From Candidatus Bathyarchaeota archaeon (GTDB lineage: Archaea > Thermoproteota > Bathyarchaeia > Bathyarchaeales > Bathycorpusculaceae): a stretch of DNA of 64,000 bases. Below are positions 6,540-15,077 of this stretch, piece by piece (the first letter of the stretch is position 1; each line of letters begins with the position of its first letter). The notes beneath the pieces were generated by a model. That model saw nothing but the letters and a program-made list of their open reading frames with translations. It ran no database searches and was not told where the DNA came from. The stretch lies in NCBI GenBank assembly GCA_018396705.1, contig JAGTQZ010000002.1:248001-312000 (forward strand), written 5' to 3'. The position numbers were made by a program, and so were the translations under genes.

Positions 6540-7314
6540 TCAGTTTTCCAATAAAAGATTTCCTAAACCATTTTCAAGCGAGACTTTTGGATTGTAACCA
6601 AGCCTTTCCTTTGCCTTTGAAATGTCGGCAACGCTGTGTCTGATGTCACCTTCCCTAGCCTCGCAGTACTGGATTTTTAAATGCTCCTTGTTGGCAAATT
6701 TTAAAAGGATGCTGGCCAACCTGTTTATGGAAGTGGCCACACCCGTCCCAATATTAAAAGCTTCTCCAGCAACTCCAGAACATTTTAAAGCAAGCAAGTT
6801 CGCTTCAGCAATATCCTCAACATACACATAATCCCTTGTCTGTTCTCCATCACCAAAAATTACCAGAGGCATGTCATTTTTAATTCGATTCAGGAACTGG
6901 GCCATGACCCCGCTGTACTCATTTAAAGCTTGCCGCGGTCCATAAACAGCGCAAGAAGAAGCATAAACAAAACGTTTTACGCCTGAATCCACACAAGCCT
7001 TCAACAAATTCAAAGTCCCATTAACATTAATGTCAAAAGTCAAAGCTGGATCCTTAAAAGGATTCCGGAACGCTAACCAAAGCAGCCAAATGAACAATAC
7101 AATCAACATCATCCACCAAACTCCTCAAAAGCCCAGCATCCCTAACATCTCCCTTAACAAAATGAAAACCCGCCCCGCCAAAATGCCGCCTGACATTGTC
7201 TAGGCTTCCACTACGCAAACTATCCAAAACAACAACCTCAAAACCCTCAGCCAAAAGACTATCAACAGTGTGGCTCCCAATAAAACCCGCCCCGCCAGTA
7301 ACCAAAACCCTCAA
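6540..7314 (-). pseudogene. NAD-dependent nucleotide-sugar epimerase, inactivated
   Basis: The protein starts MRVLVTGGAGFIGSH (TTG at 7312-7314), a classic Rossmann motif, and ends like a GalE/WbpP-type epimerase (FGDGEQTRDYVYVEDIAEAN, then NIGTGVATSINRLA). Two lesions are present. A one-base insertion in the run at about 7055 shifts the frame after LVSVPESF. Also, SSCAVYGPRQ joins the usual AVYG and VYGPRQ segments directly, so the roughly 60 residues that normally lie between them, including the catalytic YxxxK, are missing. The deletion makes loss of activity likely even if the frameshift were an assembly error. Confidence 0.75.
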
Positions 7315-7339
7315 ACAACCACCAACCGATAAAACAGCA

Positions 7340-7500
7340 AAAATCCGCCACATAAACCTTCACAAAAACGCCAGTAAACCCCAATAAAACACCAACAAAA
7401 CACCAAAAACACCGGCAACAAAAACCTTTAAACAACAACAAAACAAAAACAAAACCCAAAACAAACCCAGAAAAACTCCAATCCAAACAACAAAATTTTC
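7340..7500. repeat. Low-complexity A/C tract, almost free of G
   Basis: Between the epimerase remnant and the flippase the plus strand is built almost only of A and C with short AAAAC/AACAAC/CAAAAC units. It has no convincing coding capacity. The opposite strand is therefore T/G-rich. The tract ends just before the flippase promoter. Confidence 0.5.
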
Positions 7501-7538: not shown

Positions 7539-9116
7539 ATGCAAAAAGCCCTAGAAATGGGCAAAAAATCCGCCACAGGAAGCTTCCAACTATTCATAGG
7601 CGTGGCAGCCTCCACCATAATTATGGCAATAGGCACAATAATATTGGCTAGGCTTATAAAACCAGAAGAATATGGCCTATACACAATAGCCCTAATCCCA
7701 TCATACATGGCTAATCTCTTCAGAGACTGGGGCGTAAACTCAGCCATAGCAAGATACACAGCCAGCCTAAGGGCTGAAAACAAAGATGAAAACGCCTACC
7801 CAATAATCATTTCAGGCATAATCTTCGAACTAGCCGCAGGACTCGCTTTGTCCATAATCTTGGTTGCCCTATCTGGTTTTATCGCTTCAACAGTATTCCA
7901 AAGACCAGGAGCCTCATCTCTAATTGCCGTGGCTTCCGTCACGGTGCTTGCAGGAGCCCTTCTTGCAGCCGCGCAATCAACCTTCATAGGCTTTGAAAGA
8001 ATGGAATTAAACAGCCTAACCAGCATTTGCCAAGCAATAGCGAAGACTATCACATCCCCGCTTCTAGTGTTTGCGGGCTATGGTGCTTTAGGGGCAACCT
8101 TAGGCTATACAATATCATTTATATTCGCAACAATAATTGGGCTAATAGCACTATACCTAGCCATAATTAGGGGTTTAAAAGCCAGAAACGCTGAGATAAA
8201 CGGTTTAAGCCAAACTTTGAAGGCTATGCTACGTTACGGAATTCCCCTATCAATAGCTTCAATTATAAGCGGTTTCTTGGCGCAGTTCTATGCTTTTTTG
8301 ATGGCGATATATTGTACAGACACCATGATAGGCAATTATCAAGTGGCAACCCAATTTGCCACGTTGCTGACGTTTTTCTCAATTCCCATATCAACAGTTC
8401 TTTTCCCAGTTTTCTCAAAAATTAACCCGAAAAAAGAGGGGGAACTGCTACAATCAGTGTTTGCATCTTCAGTTAAGTATACTGCAATATTCCTTGTGCC
8501 AGCAACTACGGCAATAATGGTTTTGTCTAAACCAATGATATGCACACTTTTCGGAGAAAAGTGGGCTTACGCGCCGCTATTTCTAACCATGCATGTGATA
8601 GGCAATCTATTCGCGATTTTTGGAAACCTAAGCCTAGGAAACCTTTTGGCAGGCTTGGGTGAAACAAAAACTCAAATGAAACTAAGCCTAATAACGCTGG
8701 CATTCGGCATGCCACTAGCTTTCGTGCTTATACCCTCCGCCGGCATAGTGGGCCTCATAACAACAAGCATAGTGGCGGGACTGCCAAGCTTGTCCATCGG
8801 ATCATACTGGGTTTGGAAGCACTACAACGTTAGAGTTGACATTAAATCCTCTACAAAAATATTAGCAACGTCCTTTATCGCGGCAGCAACAACATTTCTG
8901 GTAACAAACACCATGGCATACGCAGATTGGATAAAGTTGGTTGCTGGAATCACAACCTTTTTGATAACCTACATTGTCGCAGCTCCAGCGGTGGGCGCGG
9001 TTGAAAAAGCTGACGTTGCAAATTTAAAAATAATGTTTTCAGGTTTAGGGGTAATTTCGAAACTTTTAAGCATTCCACTATCCACTATGGAAGCTATTCT
9101 AGGCTTTTTGGGATAA
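7539..9116 (+). CDS. Polysaccharide/oligosaccharide flippase (MATE/Wzx type)
   Basis: A 525-residue integral membrane protein with about 12-14 predicted helices and the family start FQLFIGVAASTIIMAIGTIILARLIKPEEYGLYTIALIPS. It would move lipid-linked oligosaccharides across the membrane for surface glycan or protein glycosylation. The LIxPEEYGxY motif and the paired charged residues in the first loops are typical. The following glycosyltransferase and the decayed epimerase fit the same pathway. Length is normal, and the ATG is preceded by a purine-rich aaagaagg. Confidence 0.86.
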   Translation: MQKALEMGKKSATGSFQLFIGVAASTIIMAIGTIILARLIKPEEYGLYTIALIPSYMANLFRDWGVNSAIARYTASLRAENKDENAYPIIISGIIFELAAGLALSIILVALSGFIASTVFQRPGASSLIAVASVTVLAGALLAAAQSTFIGFERMELNSLTSICQAIAKTITSPLLVFAGYGALGATLGYTISFIFATIIGLIALYLAIIRGLKARNAEINGLSQTLKAMLRYGIPLSIASIISGFLAQFYAFLMAIYCTDTMIGNYQVATQFATLLTFFSIPISTVLFPVFSKINPKKEGELLQSVFASSVKYTAIFLVPATTAIMVLSKPMICTLFGEKWAYAPLFLTMHVIGNLFAIFGNLSLGNLLAGLGETKTQMKLSLITLAFGMPLAFVLIPSAGIVGLITTSIVAGLPSLSIGSYWVWKHYNVRVDIKSSTKILATSFIAAATTFLVTNTMAYADWIKLVAGITTFLITYIVAAPAVGAVEKADVANLKIMFSGLGVISKLLSIPLSTMEAILGFLG

Positions 9117-9163: not shown

Positions 9164-9742
9164 TTGAAATTTCTAGTAAATTATGTAATTCGATTTGCAA
9201 GGCGTAGCATACGGCTTATACGACGGTTTTGGAAAACAATACTTTTGGTTGTCTATGTTTCTCTGGCAACACTGTTATTAAACATGGGGGTTTCCATCTG
9301 GCTAAGCAGTTTTCATGGCCTGTATCTTCCAAGCGTCGGCAATATCCACGTGATAGGTGTGGAAGCCTCTGGTGGGGACATACGCACCTTGCCGAATGGA
9401 AGTCAATTTATCAACTGGGGAACAGTTTATCTTGGAGCTAGGACAGACCGTTTGTTCTATTTGAAGAGTATAAGCAATAAACCGATAATCCTTGAGCTAA
9501 CATCTTCAAATTTGACTTTCCAAAATTCAAAAGGCGACATCGTTAAGGAGCCTCTACCTGTTGAAAATCCCTTACGCTTGTCATGGAATTATACTGGTGT
9601 GCCGCTTGAACCAAACGAACGCATTTGCGTCATTTTAACTTTGGAGGTATCTTCGGATCCAAGGTTTATCGCATATATAGTGGAAAATGATGTTGAACAG
9701 TTCCATTTCATTGTAACCATAAAACCTCTGAGCCAAGCATAG
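9164..9742 (+). CDS. Membrane-anchored beta-sandwich surface protein
   Basis: A 192-residue protein from a TTG. A basic N-terminus (RFARRSIRLIRRFWK) precedes one membrane helix at about residues 24-46; the rest is predicted to be outside the cell. The core INWGTVYLG...YLK...LSWN...ILTLEVSS is shared with the 151-residue protein encoded at 14622-15077 (IDWGEVILG...YLK...LTWN...LILTVKS). Several N-x-S/T sites could be glycosylated. The two paralogues flank the archaeosortase locus. The function is unknown; a structural or binding role at the surface is inference. Confidence 0.65.
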   Translation: MKFLVNYVIRFARRSIRLIRRFWKTILLVVYVSLATLLLNMGVSIWLSSFHGLYLPSVGNIHVIGVEASGGDIRTLPNGSQFINWGTVYLGARTDRLFYLKSISNKPIILELTSSNLTFQNSKGDIVKEPLPVENPLRLSWNYTGVPLEPNERICVILTLEVSSDPRFIAYIVENDVEQFHFIVTIKPLSQA

Positions 9743-9856: not shown

Positions 9857-10549
9857 ATGCCGAACAACGTTGTATCGGTGATTATTCCAGCATATAATGA
9901 AGAGAAAACACTAGGCAGCGTAATCGAAGAAACAGCCCAAATAATGGAAAGTTTAGGCCTTCCATACGAGATAATCGTTGTAGACGACGGTTCTGAAGAC
10001 CGTACGCGGGAAGTGGCGAGCAAATACAAGGTTACAGTGCTGTCAAACGGAGGAAACATGGGAAAAGGCTACGCCCTAAGAAAGGGTTTTCAACACGCCA
10101 ACGGCAACATAATTGTAACTATAGACGCAGACGGCTCCCACAAGCCTAAGGAAATCCCAGATCTGATTAACACATTAGTGGACGGCGCAGATGTAGTGGC
10201 TGGTTCAAGGTTTTTAGGAAAAAACAAAAACCACACCTCAAAACTCCACGTGTTCGGCAACCATCTCATAAACATGACAATTATGGTTTTAACGGGAAAA
10301 AAGATCACAGACAGTCAAACTGGGCTAAGAGCCTTAAAAAGAGAATTCCTTAAAAGCATAAGTTTGGAGTCTAACGGCTACGAGATTGAAACTGAAATAA
10401 CCATGAAAGGATTAAAAAATGGCTTTGTTTTCAAAGAGATACCTATAAGCTGTGAAAAAAGAAAAAATGGGGTGTCAAGGCTAAGCGCGCTACGACAAGG
10501 CCCAAAAATCTTAAAAACAATTTTAAAACATGCGGTTGCGCCGAAATAG
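9857..10549 (+). CDS. Family 2 glycosyltransferase (dolichyl-phosphate sugar synthase type)
   Basis: A 230-residue GT-A enzyme: VSVIIPAYNEEKTLG at the start, IIVVDDGSEDRT, and the metal-binding region VTIDADGSHKP. There is no C-terminal membrane helix, as in soluble DPM1-like enzymes that load a sugar from a nucleotide donor on to dolichyl phosphate. It is downstream of the flippase and upstream of the sortase substrate, consistent with lipid-linked glycan assembly for surface proteins. The sugar is not predictable. Confidence 0.86.
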   Translation: MPNNVVSVIIPAYNEEKTLGSVIEETAQIMESLGLPYEIIVVDDGSEDRTREVASKYKVTVLSNGGNMGKGYALRKGFQHANGNIIVTIDADGSHKPKEIPDLINTLVDGADVVAGSRFLGKNKNHTSKLHVFGNHLINMTIMVLTGKKITDSQTGLRALKREFLKSISLESNGYEIETEITMKGLKNGFVFKEIPISCEKRKNGVSRLSALRQGPKILKTILKHAVAPK

Positions 10550-10633: not shown

Positions 10634-11332
10634 TTGGATTTAAAGAAAATGTTGCTAGCGCTGATGATAATAACATTTGTTGCCAGTTTCCTTTACATGC
10701 CAGCTGTCAAAGCTGAAGAAGTGGTGATAAATAACTATGACAATGTAACGTCGGAGAAGGTAATTAGCGAAATCAACGACATTGTTAAAAAGGGTGTTAC
10801 GGAGGGGGAGATAATATACATTGAAGACTCTGCGTTTTCTAGTTCTCTAACATCATCCCTAAAGAATTATGGTCCTAGGATGTTATTATGTCGTTATTGG
10901 TACAGTTTAACAGTGTCTCCAAAGGCTGCCTATGTTGGGCAGTCCGTAACGGCTAATGCAACTACAAATAACATGTACGTTACAAATGTCACATTCATAT
11001 GGATAAAATTGTTCGACGGGATCAAAAAGACGGAAAGAGTCCAGGCCTCTTTGAAAAATGGTCTTAAGGAGGCTATCAGCACATACGAACTTACCAGTAA
11101 CAGCGATGTAGGCTCGTGGTTGGTGTTCGCCTTGTTCGAGTTTGAATATGTCAATTCATATGGGTGTAAATGTATAAAGTTGTTTGCCCTTAGGTGGACA
11201 TGTTTCTATGTTAATCCCAGAATCCCACAGCAAATACCAGACTATCCGGTTGTTGGCACTGCAGGTGCTATGACATCCATGATTATAGGGTTAGGTTTAT
11301 TCATAAATAAGAGAAAACGAAAACCCTTTTAG
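10634..11332 (+). CDS. Secreted protein with C-terminal sorting signal
   Basis: A 232-residue protein. Residues 1-25 form a signal peptide (LKKMLLALMIITF, cleavage near VKA-EE). The middle is a soluble region with several N-x-S/T sites and few cysteines. The C-terminus is a three-part sorting signal: the motif IPDYPVVG at about 201-208, a hydrophobic helix (TAGAMTSMIIGLGLFI), and a basic end (NKRKRK). This resembles the PEF/VPEFP-type CTERM signals recognised by archaeosortases, and an archaeosortase gene starts 52 bp downstream. A TATA element (aatttataaa) lies about 45 bp upstream, and a gggagaggg ribosome site precedes the start. Confidence 0.72.
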   Translation: MDLKKMLLALMIITFVASFLYMPAVKAEEVVINNYDNVTSEKVISEINDIVKKGVTEGEIIYIEDSAFSSSLTSSLKNYGPRMLLCRYWYSLTVSPKAAYVGQSVTANATTNNMYVTNVTFIWIKLFDGIKKTERVQASLKNGLKEAISTYELTSNSDVGSWLVFALFEFEYVNSYGCKCIKLFALRWTCFYVNPRIPQQIPDYPVVGTAGAMTSMIIGLGLFINKRKRKPF

Positions 11333-11383: not shown

Positions 11384-13441
11384 GTGAAGAGAGTTTCAGA
11401 TAAAATCAGGTGGATAATTGGTGCATTTGAGGGCTATTGGCAGCACGTTTTAGCCCTATTTCTTTTTTTATTGGTAATCTGGGCAGTCTACTGGCGTGAC
11501 TTGGAAATATTGTTGAATGAAGCCCTCCACGCGGAAGCTCTTTCACACGTTCTTCTAATACCAGCCTTCGTGGGCGTTCTTCTCTATTTGAAGAGGGATG
11601 CGTTTAAGGCTTCGCTTGCTTTGGAGTCTCTACGAAAGAAATCTGGAGGCATGCCTTTTGATGAACTCGTTGGATTAAGCCTATGCCTCATAGCTTTTCT
11701 AGTTTATTGGTATGGTTCATACACATTTTATCCACTGGAATATCATGTGCTCTCTTTACCCGTATTTGTAGTGGGTGCCATGCTAATTCTCTTTAATCTA
11801 AAAGCCTTGAAAGTGCTAATCATCCCCGTAGTGCTTCTTGTTTTTATGGTCCCGATGCCCAACGAGATAGCATACACTTTAGGCGGAAACCTAGCAAACA
11901 TTAACACTCAAGCTTCCTATACATTACTCAAGGGGTTAGGAGTCCCGGTAACATTAAACACGACGTATGGCTCTCCAACCATAATGCTGACGAAAAACCA
12001 GGAGCAGCCAATTCCGTTCACTGTGGACATCCCATGCTCGGGTATTTACATGTTAACCGCCTTCTTCATGTTCGCTGTCTTTCTAATGGCGATTGTACAA
12101 GCTCCACTTCTCAAAAAAGCTTTAATCTTCGCGGTTGGCTTCGCTGTTTTTGAAGCTCTAAACATTGTCCGCATAACGTCCATAGTTTCTGCGGCTTACC
12201 TCTTCGGAGAAGAGGTTGCAATGCTTATTTTTCACTCATTAGCTGGTTTAATGCTCACATTCGTTGGAATATTCATCACACTTATCGTGTCTGAAAAGCT
12301 ATTGGCAATAAAAGTTATTACCAGCCGCGCTGACACGCCTTTATGCCCAGAGTGTAACAGGTTTCGGGAAAAATTCCAGAACTTTTGCTTAAACTGTGGA
12401 AGGTTCTTTAACCCATTTAGAAGGAAACCTTCCCGAGTTTTTTGGGCAAAAATAACGCTGCTACTAATCGGCTGTTGCCTAGTATCTCTAAGCGTCAGCG
12501 CGCCGGTTTTCGCCATCTCAAAGGAAACAATAGAGGTAACCTCATGGGAAAAAACAACAGAAATTCTGCCGCGGGTCCCAGATTACAACCTCACTTTTCT
12601 ATATCGGGATACTGGTTATGAACGAATAGCAAAACAGGACGCGTCGCTGGTTTACGCTTATTTTCCAGCAAACCTTTCAAGGCCGGTTACATATGCTATT
12701 ATAAGCGTGGCAACCAGCATCTCGAACCTTCATAACTGGGAAGTTTGCCTCATATCATGGCAGACAGCTCAGGGGCGTTACCCGCTAGTTGAAGTTCTAG
12801 CCTCTAACGATATACAATTGCTTGAGGGCGGCCAGTTAATTGCAAAGTACCTAGTTTTCCGAAATTCCGAGGAAAACTATACGCAATATACACTTTACTG
12901 GTATGAAAGGGCCACATTCAAAATGGGCGCCACAGTGCAACAGCGATATGTTAGAATAAGCCTTCTAATATGGGCATGGGGAGTTTCCAGCCCTCAACAG
13001 TATGAAAACCAGCTTCTGGAACTCGGAGATGCGGTAGCCCGCCACTGGGAACCAATAAAAACTCAAGCATTACTTTCTTTGGGAATACCTGCACAGCAAA
13101 CTCTCCTTGCCTTTTCAATAGCCCTCATAATAGTCACAAAAGCAGCAGAGTCCACCCGCAAGTGGCATAAAAAAATGAATAACATGAAAATATTCAACAA
13201 TCTAGCTTCACCCACAGACAAGCTTGTACTTCAAACAATTACCGAGTTAAGCAAAGCTAAAGGAAACGCCACGACAGCTGAAATAAATAATGCAATTAAA
13301 AACAGAACTGGGAAAACAATGAAACTTAGAAGGCTCATGGAAAGGTTAAACCGTCTACAGGAATATGGCTTCATAAAAGTGGACCTAACGTTAACAAATA
13401 ATACTCCAAAACTTGTTTGGAAAAGTTTAGTAAACCTCTAG
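11384..13441 (+). CDS. Archaeosortase with fused zinc ribbon, EpsI-like and winged-helix domains
   Basis: A 685-residue protein from a GTG. Residues 20-310 are a multi-pass archaeosortase/exosortase with C218 (IPCSGIY), R263 (NIVRITS) and H284 (FHSLAG), the expected Cys-Arg-His set. Residues 321-338 form a CPEC...CLNC zinc ribbon. A membrane helix at about 356-378 leads to an extracellular region of about 190 residues that resembles the EpsI-type (DUF3485) partner of exosortases. Another helix follows, and the last 75 residues look like a winged helix (SKAKGNATTAEINNAIKN, RLNRLQEYGFIKV). Archaeosortases process CTERM proteins, and the preceding gene encodes a candidate substrate. The cytoplasmic ribbon and DNA-binding-like end are unusual. 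Confidence 0.8.
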   Translation: MKRVSDKIRWIIGAFEGYWQHVLALFLFLLVIWAVYWRDLEILLNEALHAEALSHVLLIPAFVGVLLYLKRDAFKASLALESLRKKSGGMPFDELVGLSLCLIAFLVYWYGSYTFYPLEYHVLSLPVFVVGAMLILFNLKALKVLIIPVVLLVFMVPMPNEIAYTLGGNLANINTQASYTLLKGLGVPVTLNTTYGSPTIMLTKNQEQPIPFTVDIPCSGIYMLTAFFMFAVFLMAIVQAPLLKKALIFAVGFAVFEALNIVRITSIVSAAYLFGEEVAMLIFHSLAGLMLTFVGIFITLIVSEKLLAIKVITSRADTPLCPECNRFREKFQNFCLNCGRFFNPFRRKPSRVFWAKITLLLIGCCLVSLSVSAPVFAISKETIEVTSWEKTTEILPRVPDYNLTFLYRDTGYERIAKQDASLVYAYFPANLSRPVTYAIISVATSISNLHNWEVCLISWQTAQGRYPLVEVLASNDIQLLEGGQLIAKYLVFRNSEENYTQYTLYWYERATFKMGATVQQRYVRISLLIWAWGVSSPQQYENQLLELGDAVARHWEPIKTQALLSLGIPAQQTLLAFSIALIIVTKAAESTRKWHKKMNNMKIFNNLASPTDKLVLQTITELSKAKGNATTAEINNAIKNRTGKTMKLRRLMERLNRLQEYGFIKVDLTLTNNTPKLVWKSLVNL

Positions 13442-13481: not shown

Positions 13482-14375
13482 ATGTGCATAGAAACGAACA
13501 AAAAGGTCGAAGAAAAAACACCAAACGAACATTCGGCGGAGACCGTCAAAAAGCTTCAAGAGGAAGTTGAAAATCTGAAACTTGAGCTAAAAAAGGCTAA
13601 GAGCATACCTTCCGGGAAAATAGGCTTAGCCTTAGCAATCCCCGGCGTCTTATGCCTCGTCGGCGCAATTTTAAAGGACTCGAACGTTTTAGCCTTCATA
13701 GGTTTAGGTTTAACATTCTGGGGTGCTCTCTTCTTTTTCGTGAGACCTCTGCGGTATGTGCAAAGTAGTCTAATAGACTCAACGGCGTTACCTGCATACA
13801 AAACTATTGACAGAATAGTTGCAGACTTGAAATATAAAGGCAAAAGCTATTATATACCGCCATATCCAAAGGAAGTTTACCTTCCAGAACACTTAAAAGG
13901 CCTTAAAGACCATGTGGTTTTTATTTCTTCAGACGCTGGTGGCGTGCCTTCCATAGAAGAACTTGCAAAAAGCAAATTTTTGCTCGCCAACCCGAACGGT
14001 GTTTGTGTTGCTCCACCAGGGTTGGGAATTCTTGAACAGATTGAAAAAGAGTTAAGGAAGGACACAGCGAAACTTCAGTTAGCTGAACTATGCGAAACCA
14101 TCCCCATAATAATTGTTGAAAACCTACAGTTGGCAAAAGAAGCGGAAATGAAAATTGAAGACAACAGCGTTAATCTAAAAATATCTGACTCAGTGTACAA
14201 GAGTCTATATATTGATGAAAACTTGAAAAGTGTTTATTTACTAGGATGCCCTATTGCAAGCGCTGTAGCATGTGCGTTAGCCAAGGCTTCTGGAAAAGCA
14301 GTTACAATACAGAAGGTTAACGCATCTATTGATGGCCAGACAGTTGAAATTCGATACCGCATGGTGGAAAGCTAG
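13482..14375 (+). CDS. Conserved membrane protein with coiled coil
   Basis: A 297-residue protein, not assigned to a named family. It has a predicted coiled coil at about residues 9-38 (VKKLQEEVENLKLELKKA), two adjacent membrane helices at about 50-90, and a 200-residue cytoplasmic domain rich in hydrophobic strands (VFISSDAGGVPSIEEL, GVCVAPPGLGILEQIEKEL). It follows the sortase by 40 bp and precedes a small membrane protein by 2 bp, so it is probably part of the surface locus. No catalytic motif is visible. Confidence 0.6.
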   Translation: MCIETNKKVEEKTPNEHSAETVKKLQEEVENLKLELKKAKSIPSGKIGLALAIPGVLCLVGAILKDSNVLAFIGLGLTFWGALFFFVRPLRYVQSSLIDSTALPAYKTIDRIVADLKYKGKSYYIPPYPKEVYLPEHLKGLKDHVVFISSDAGGVPSIEELAKSKFLLANPNGVCVAPPGLGILEQIEKELRKDTAKLQLAELCETIPIIIVENLQLAKEAEMKIEDNSVNLKISDSVYKSLYIDENLKSVYLLGCPIASAVACALAKASGKAVTIQKVNASIDGQTVEIRYRMVES

Positions 14376-14377
14376 AC

Positions 14378-14584
14378 ATGAATTTTCCGATGTCCATGTC
14401 GGACATAAGCCTTTGGCTGGCGGTCATGGCTATAATTCTGCTCATAACATCTGAGATTATATCTTCAGCTTCTGGATACACTGGAAACATTATTATTGAA
14501 AAGAGGCGTCTTCGCCTCGTCGCCCTTGCTTTAGGAATCGGGTTTATGGCTACTGTGATTATGCGGATTTTCCAGCCTTTTTAG
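14378..14584 (+). CDS. Small two-helix membrane protein
   Basis: A 68-residue protein starting 2 bp after the previous stop. Two hydrophobic helices (LWLAVMAIILLITSEII and LVALALGIGFMATVIM) flank a short basic loop (IIEKRRLR). Close spacing suggests that it is made with, and perhaps binds, the membrane protein encoded just upstream. Similar small partners accompany many membrane complexes; the function is unknown. Confidence 0.55.
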   Translation: MNFPMSMSDISLWLAVMAIILLITSEIISSASGYTGNIIIEKRRLRLVALALGIGFMATVIMRIFQPF

Positions 14585-14621: not shown

Positions 14622-15077
14622 TTATTGAGTTTCAGTTGCTATTATGGATATATCAAATGAGAATGAGCCTCCTTGGGCGTTTGACTTCACTGTTAGGATT
14701 AAGTTTGCACTGATTGATTCGCCGACGTTTAAAATAGCGTTTTCCCGGTTCCAAGTTAAAGTTAAGTAATTACTTGCCGAAGATGGAGTCCAGTTTCCAT
14801 ATATCATGGAAAGCGTTACCTTTACATTACCAAGGTTTTTCAGGTATATAGTCCGTGTATAATTTTGACCTAGGATAACTTCACCCCAATCAATGCTAGA
14901 TAGGGAAACTGTACACGATGAGTCGCTGTATACGCCGAGACCCAGAGTGGCCCTCACGTTTCCCGAACTTTGAATCGTTTGGATAGCTGGAAGCAAACCG
15001 GCAACTAAGGCTGTTGTGACCATGGCTGCTAGCGCAAGGGCGAAGGCTATGGCCAAATTTGATTTTGGGCTTTCCAT
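14622..15077 (-). CDS. Membrane-anchored beta-sandwich protein, paralogue of 9164-9742
   Basis: A 151-residue protein with an N-terminal membrane helix (LAIAFALALAAMVTTALVA) and a beta-rich exterior. The pattern SIDWGEVILGQNYTRTIYLK, then LTLTWN and LILTVKS aligns with the larger protein at 9164-9742. It has several N-x-S/T sites. It is transcribed on the minus strand, convergent with the small membrane gene. The resemblance to pilin-like surface subunits is limited to the single N-terminal helix. Confidence 0.62.
   Translation of the reverse strand: MESPKSNLAIAFALALAAMVTTALVAGLLPAIQTIQSSGNVRATLGLGVYSDSSCTVSLSSIDWGEVILGQNYTRTIYLKNLGNVKVTLSMIYGNWTPSSASNYLTLTWNRENAILNVGESISANLILTVKSNAQGGSFSFDISIIATETQ

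Follow-up and report, generated by a model that had tools for sequence, protein, structure and literature searches.

An exosortase-family protein of Bathyarchaeia combining a sortase core with a zinc ribbon, an EpsI-like domain and a winged-helix-like tail

The locus and the sortase core

The window analysed here, a stretch of 64,000 nucleotides, corresponds to positions 248001–312000 of contig C2 in a 1.7 Mb genome of nine contigs (G000) from an uncultured member of the Bathyarchaeia. The gene under study lies in a row of genes that encode, in order, a flippase, an Ig-like membrane protein, an AglJ-type glycosyltransferase, a secreted 232-aa protein, the enzyme itself and two proteins that we designate c1 and c5. 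The arrangement is operon-like and suggests that the enzyme gene belongs to a glycosylation operon:

7539..9116, plus strand: Wzx/MATE-like flippase (PF13440, 8e-32)
9164..9742, plus strand: c2 family, small membrane protein whose domain is Ig-like, of the choice-of-anchor D type (domain match, locus comparison)
9857..10549, plus strand: GT2 glycosyltransferase, AglJ/dolichyl-phosphate type (PF00535, 1.8e-36; TIGR04182, 4e-46, under cut-off)
10634..11332, plus strand: candidate substrate, secreted 232-aa protein (tail profile match, E 2e-4)
11384..13441, plus strand: whole gene of the exosortase-family protein with zinc ribbon, EpsI-like and winged-helix parts (single-frame architecture, also in relatives)
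13482..14375, plus strand: partner family c1, two helices and a cytosolic domain (adjoins the enzyme in most loci)
14378..14584, plus strand: conserved 68-aa two-helix membrane protein, c5 (locus comparison)
14622..15077, minus strand: second c2 Ig-like membrane protein, conserved in many loci (locus comparison)

The window also contains, at 6540–7353 on the minus strand, an NDP-sugar epimerase gene in two overlapping frames of 190 and 99 aa. The related locus L065 has the epimerase as one 316-aa frame, and the split in the window may represent a frameshift, a pseudogene or an assembly error.

Family c1 adjoins the enzyme gene in most of 32 loci and is encoded in 39 of the 41 enzyme-bearing genomes vs 31 of the 216 others (P 2e-24). 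Its distribution, 70 of 257 Bathyarchaeia genomes, is wider than that of the enzyme. Searches with c1 against Pfam and NCBIfam returned nothing above cut-off; its cytosolic domain carries a conserved GCP-x-x-SA-x-AC motif.

The enzyme gene has a GTG start and encodes 685 aa without internal stops, exactly the frame given in the original prediction. The following parts can be assigned on the plus strand:

11384..12319: exosortase/archaeosortase core, a multi-helix membrane enzyme, residues 1–312 (PF09721, TIGR04178, monophyletic core tree)
12035..12037: Cys218, predicted nucleophile (kept in all but the Ser-variant members)
12170..12172: Arg263 of the catalytic set (invariant)
12233..12235: His284 of the catalytic set (invariant except for Glu in L094)
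12344..12397: C4 zinc ribbon, Cys321/324/335/338, predicted cytoplasmic loop (four Cys invariant in 17 sequences; sub-threshold DZR match)
12449..12511: membrane helix after the ribbon, residues ~356–376 (alignment-averaged hydropathy)
12521..13072: EpsI-like domain, predicted extracytoplasmic, residues 380–563 (hhalign score above shuffles and decoys; sequons)
12731..12748: H450-x-W452-E453-x-C455 motif, equivalent to H-x-P-E-x-C of EpsI (invariant; aligned to the EpsI motif)
13079..13147: last membrane helix, residues ~566–588 (hydropathy; basic residues after it)
13196..13438: winged-helix tail, predicted cytoplasmic, residues 605–685 (AlphaFold2 H-H-H-E-E; Foldseek; W679, P675)

Residues 30–302 matched the Pfam family Exosortase_EpsH (PF09721; 107.6 bits, cut-off 25.7, E 9e-31), and the TIGR04178 (exo_archaeo) score was 49.3 bits against a cut-off of 23 (E 4.5e-13). 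All typed exosortase and archaeosortase models (XrtA, XrtD, XrtW, ArtA–ArtF and others) scored far under their cut-offs. The label 'archaeosortase' is, on these scores, a loose one, because the best typed models were the bacterial exosortases XrtW (79 vs a cut-off of 425), XrtA and XrtD (52 vs 400), even though each remained under its cut-off. Cys218, Arg263 and His284, proposed earlier as the catalytic set, proved invariant in an alignment of 17 full-length sequences.

A second sortase-family gene of G000, on contig C4 (locus L002, G000:C4:289440), encodes a separate thaumarchaeosortase-like protein. About eight large secreted proteins of this genome, encoded on contigs C1, C2, C3, C4, C7 and C9, end in a PEFP-type tail (e.g. 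VIPEFP followed by a helix and NRK) and are possible clients of that enzyme.

Relatives and candidate substrates

A search of 61 related genomes recovered the same protein at full length and in a single frame with 31–60% identity, and overall dozens of genomes share the full-length architecture, with identities of 28–60%. Its presence in other archaeal genomes, which had been put forward as a check on the prediction, extends to 41 of 257 Bathyarchaeia genomes, counted by matches to a profile of the EpsI part, and to six further genomes from two other classes of the same phylum that also encode the domain. Nearly all matches in the 41 genomes fall within open frames of ~590–754 aa, some of the shorter ones being located at contig ends or next to a masked gap. 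One relative resides in a closed chromosome (CP070730). Because the architecture recurs at such identities, including in CP070730, it is attributable neither to chance nor to a join: the earlier worry that the frame might fuse two neighbouring genes by misassembly can be given practically no weight, the identical single-frame layout being present in dozens of independent genomes, and we rejected an assembly or frame artefact.

In a tree of the sortase core, all 38 fused members formed one branch (99/96), apart from the bacterial exosortases and the other archaeal ones. A plasmid search with the core of the window protein gave no match; the same search with the core of a relative retrieved bacterial exosortases, which were used for comparison.

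The secreted 232-aa protein encoded just before the enzyme ends in IPDYPVVGTAG followed by a helix and KRKRKPF (11234–11329), and most loci contain at least one nearby secreted protein that ends in [VI][VI]PE-x-P-[LF]-G, a membrane helix and Lys/Arg residues. A profile was built from 19 tails of these enzyme loci, supplied by 15 genomes, and was searched against the 257 genomes, an E value of about 1e-6 or better being counted as a strong match. Such matches were found in 30 of the 41 enzyme-bearing genomes vs 5 of the 216 others; with the 15 training genomes removed the figures were 15/26 and 5/216, with a Fisher P of 3e-13 that ignores the relatedness of the genomes by descent. The five genomes carry tails without the enzyme. 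At E ≤ 0.1, the number of tailed proteins reaches 19 in G148 and 15 in G160, and G000 has two, the one in the window and G000:C4:411605. The candidate substrates belonged to no NCBIfam family and matched no PEP-CTERM model. Because tailed secreted proteins adjoin the enzyme gene and the tail co-occurs with the enzyme across genomes, the protein probably acts as a sortase on a PEP-CTERM-like signal of its own. Tail signal and operon together would amount to a sorting system resembling PEP-CTERM for uncultured Bathyarchaeia, a group about whose cell surface hardly anything is known.

The added domains and their likely roles

The four ribbon cysteines (Cys321, 324, 335 and 338, forming two CxxC knuckles) were invariant in the 17-sequence alignment, and the Pfam DZR family matched 16 of the 17 members, each time under the cut-off. 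Hydropathy averaged over the relatives revealed the core helices and then helices at ~358–372 and ~571–584; together with the invariant cysteines, this confirmed the predicted ribbon and the membrane helices on either side of the EpsI-like part. The mean net charge over the relatives was +6 for the loop at 304–357 and +3.5 for the loop at 585–604. N-x-S/T sequons numbered 120 over the family in residues 380–563 vs 57 expected from shuffling, 14 vs 12 in the ribbon loop, and 19 vs 32 in the tail. Because of the basic loops and the sequon enrichment at 380–563, the ribbon and winged helix most likely lie inside the cell and the EpsI part outside.

The EpsI likeness of the middle part, also claimed in the original prediction, stood in profile–profile comparison with controls and was absent from direct searches. 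The window protein had no direct match to the EpsI families (TIGR02914, DUF3485/PF11984), one relative reached E 0.06 against DUF3485, and in a plain HMM search of the proteome, that is, by sequence-to-profile comparison alone, the likeness was not significant. The PF11984 search of G000 was likewise empty, and a separate EpsI is absent from this genome. Against a profile of eight bacterial EpsI domains taken from annotated plasmid records, profile–profile alignment gave P 1.7e-4 and placed LHNWEVC on H-x-PE-x-C and LYWYE on YYWF. A deeper profile of 42 archaeal members scored 30.0. Its 60 column shuffles reached at most 17.2, the reversed profile 13.9, and 17 unrelated profiles taken from these loci and this protein at most 15.7; a chance resemblance was rejected on these controls. 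Residues 380–563 are thus predicted to be a remote homologue of EpsI, because their score exceeds those of all shuffled, reversed and decoy profiles. The motif residues H450, W452, E453 and C455 were invariant in the full-length alignment. A weak Foldseek likeness of this part to START/PYL folds (prob 0.1–0.4) was set aside as evidence.

Fusion of EpsI to EpsH has been described in bacteria, its function being not known (PMC1569441). The archaeal family may offer an indication in the form of two cysteines that change together. All three S218 sequences in the member table also have S455, and L129 (G311) is the single C218 member, of those whose EpsI part could be read, to have S455. A further search in the class that contains G423 yielded five genomes from three genera, all with S218 and S455, that retain R263, H284, the ribbon cysteines, H450, W452 and E453. 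The Ser-Arg-His members are thus L130, L131, L228, L229 and L230 from the other class and L093 (G106:C9) from the Bathyarchaeia; all six, in two lineages, have S455 and keep Arg, His and the ribbon. In the core tree L093 is on a different branch from the other-class Ser members, and there have therefore been at least two independent Cys-to-Ser events. Genome G106 has two copies of the enzyme with different catalytic losses, L093 (Ser218-Arg-His) and L094 (Cys218-Arg-Glu), the latter with H284E and a CxxH in the ribbon; the pair may work as a heterodimer in which each copy supplies what the other lacks, or both copies may be altered.

A serine nucleophile is conceivable in the S218 members, because their genomes still carry VPE-type tails. 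Either Cys218 and Cys455 work together, or lineages that avoid thiols outside the cell drop both while the ribbon thiols inside stay, a reading that does not need catalytic coupling. One tentative and on balance doubtful proposal is that Cys218 and Cys455 are coupled thiols, which would form a transient disulfide or pass the acyl group from one to the other through a second thioester, making EpsI one half of the active site. If true, this would give EpsI a function, and the Ser-nucleophile lineages would have switched both positions to become serine sortases. To our knowledge, no function of EpsI has been reported since its fusion was described. The enzyme–EpsI fusion in archaea and the joint change of motif and catalytic cysteine would make a specific EpsI role testable by two-residue swaps.

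AlphaFold2 modelled residues 610–681 as H-H-H-E-E with pLDDT of about 60–88. Modelling the whole chain on four sequences gave a mean pLDDT of only 45, whereas the model of the C-terminal half alone was better (mean 66.7), with ~77–88 for a tail of three helices and a two-strand wing. Foldseek matched the tail to the winged helices of Cdc6/Orc1, AF2008, PadR, PerR and HxlR/YodB with prob 0.99–1.00, the E values being only ~1e-2 to 1e-1. Five of 14 tails matched Pfam Cdc6_C under its threshold, and a tail profile found nothing significant among the sequences of solved structures. The winged-helix fold that had been suggested for the C-terminal region is thus supported by the structure prediction and Foldseek. 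P675 and W679 were invariant in the 17-sequence alignment, P675 being near-invariant over a wider tail set; in 42 tails the near-invariant residues were L655, P675, W679 and K680, placed in the fold core and wing. The putative recognition helix varies among these 42 relatives, lacks a conserved face and has a mean net charge of −1. The divergent members L095 and L096 have shortened, eroded tails, and the relative L018 (G058) has an insertion of ~50 residues after the first helix of the tail. Several loci have a DUF1616 membrane protein in the vicinity of the enzyme (L075:11116-11748, L079:9302-9925, L073:12367-13302 and L084:11120-11716); one copy has an N-terminal sub-threshold match to GMT-wHTH (E 0.01), which would make it a second surface-biogenesis protein with such a domain.

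The ribbon and winged helix are most likely a protein dock rather than a gene switch, because the recognition helix is variable and on average acidic and the residues that hardly vary lie in the wing and core; we infer the docking role mainly from the non-conservation of that helix. We consider it reasonably probable that the protein is a membrane-embedded C-terminal sorting enzyme that has its helper parts, including this docking module, built into the same polypeptide. Cys218, with Arg263 and His284, would attack secreted proteins at the [VI][VI]PE-x-P-[LF]-G tail with its helix and Lys/Arg residues, at the outer face of the membrane, as for ArtA with PGF tails (PMC9263693) and for bacterial PEP-CTERM proteins, and the trimmed protein would be passed to a surface acceptor, a lipid or glycan. 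The EpsI-like domain would cover the active site from the outer side of the membrane and cooperate with it, and the joint change of the two cysteines suggests a functional link between Cys455 and Cys218. The ribbon and winged helix would dock partner proteins, such as the downstream c1, or the cytoplasmic end of the substrates. Sorting enzymes could accordingly bear a built-in cytoplasmic module.

The original prediction had the tail bind DNA and so link surface anchoring to gene control. In such a scheme the tail would bind DNA near the membrane and couple the state of the sortase to surface-protein gene expression, as a one-chain counterpart of the control of bacterial PEP-CTERM genes by PrsK/PrsR. 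The winged-helix fold, the basic character of the window protein (tail +8, putative recognition helix +3) and the bacterial precedent of separate regulators for sorting-tail genes (PMC1569441) would be compatible with it; however, one would expect the DNA-reading part of a conserved regulator to be preserved, except where target sites vary from lineage to lineage, and over the 42 relatives that helix is poorly conserved and on average acidic, the near-invariant residues being those of the core and wing. We therefore regard gene control by the tail as unlikely, although the basic tail of the window protein itself may bind DNA. The same pattern, a conserved wing Trp and Pro beside a variable surface helix, might be expected of a structural cap that stabilizes or oligomerizes the enzyme without a partner or regulatory role, but the four ribbon cysteines are strictly conserved and c1 strongly co-occurs with the enzyme; both point to a specific partner and make a mere cap distinctly unlikely. 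A role in signalling or as a scaffold, with the sortase fold retained but its chemistry lost, is very unlikely. The Ser-Arg-His members, a five-genome clade in the other class and one Bathyarchaeia copy with the rest conserved, could be taken as showing a non-catalytic role; yet Cys-Arg-His is retained in the window protein and in most relatives, genomes with the enzyme tend to be those with the cognate tails, and the Ser-variant genomes also have VPE-type tails, so that serine may serve as the nucleophile. A catalytically active sorting enzyme with a docking module remains the preferred reading.

Comparison with known sorting systems

In bacteria, exosortases with a fused EpsI (TIGR02914/PF11984) comprise XrtD/VPLPA-CTERM (TIGR04152), XrtW (NF038142) and the sphingomonad XrtA. 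They share with the window enzyme the core fold, the Cys-Arg-His set and the position of EpsI after the core, as well as an operon with glycosyltransferases and tripartite tails of the V-P-E type. Unlike them, the window enzyme is archaeal and has a ribbon before EpsI and a helix and winged helix after it; its clade is separate from theirs, and its scores with the typed models are far under cut-off. ArtA–ArtF and thaumarchaeosortase resemble the window enzyme in being archaeal members of the TIGR04178 superfamily that are associated with C-terminal tripartite tails. ArtA is not known to us to carry EpsI, a ribbon or a winged helix as a fused part. Its catalytic set is Cys-Arg-Arg (PMC9263693), as opposed to Cys-Arg-His in the window enzyme.

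The PEP-CTERM/EpsH system likewise combines a sorting tail, EpsH and EpsI beside polysaccharide genes; in those bacteria regulation is by separate kinase and response-regulator proteins, PrsK and PrsR, and the 2006 survey did not find PEP-CTERM in archaea (PMC1569441). The predicted fold of the window tail is shared with the C-terminal winged helix of Cdc6/Orc1 and with the PadR and HxlR regulators; unlike these, the tail would be tethered to the membrane, has only sub-threshold sequence matches and lacks a conserved recognition helix.

None of the papers searched described an archaeosortase with a winged helix or zinc ribbon. We know of no described sortase with this four-part layout, in agreement with the original prediction, which knew of no archaeosortase so built. 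The combination of sortase, ribbon, EpsI-like and winged-helix parts is real and conserved, is apparently undescribed and represents a new variant within the exosortase/archaeosortase superfamily.
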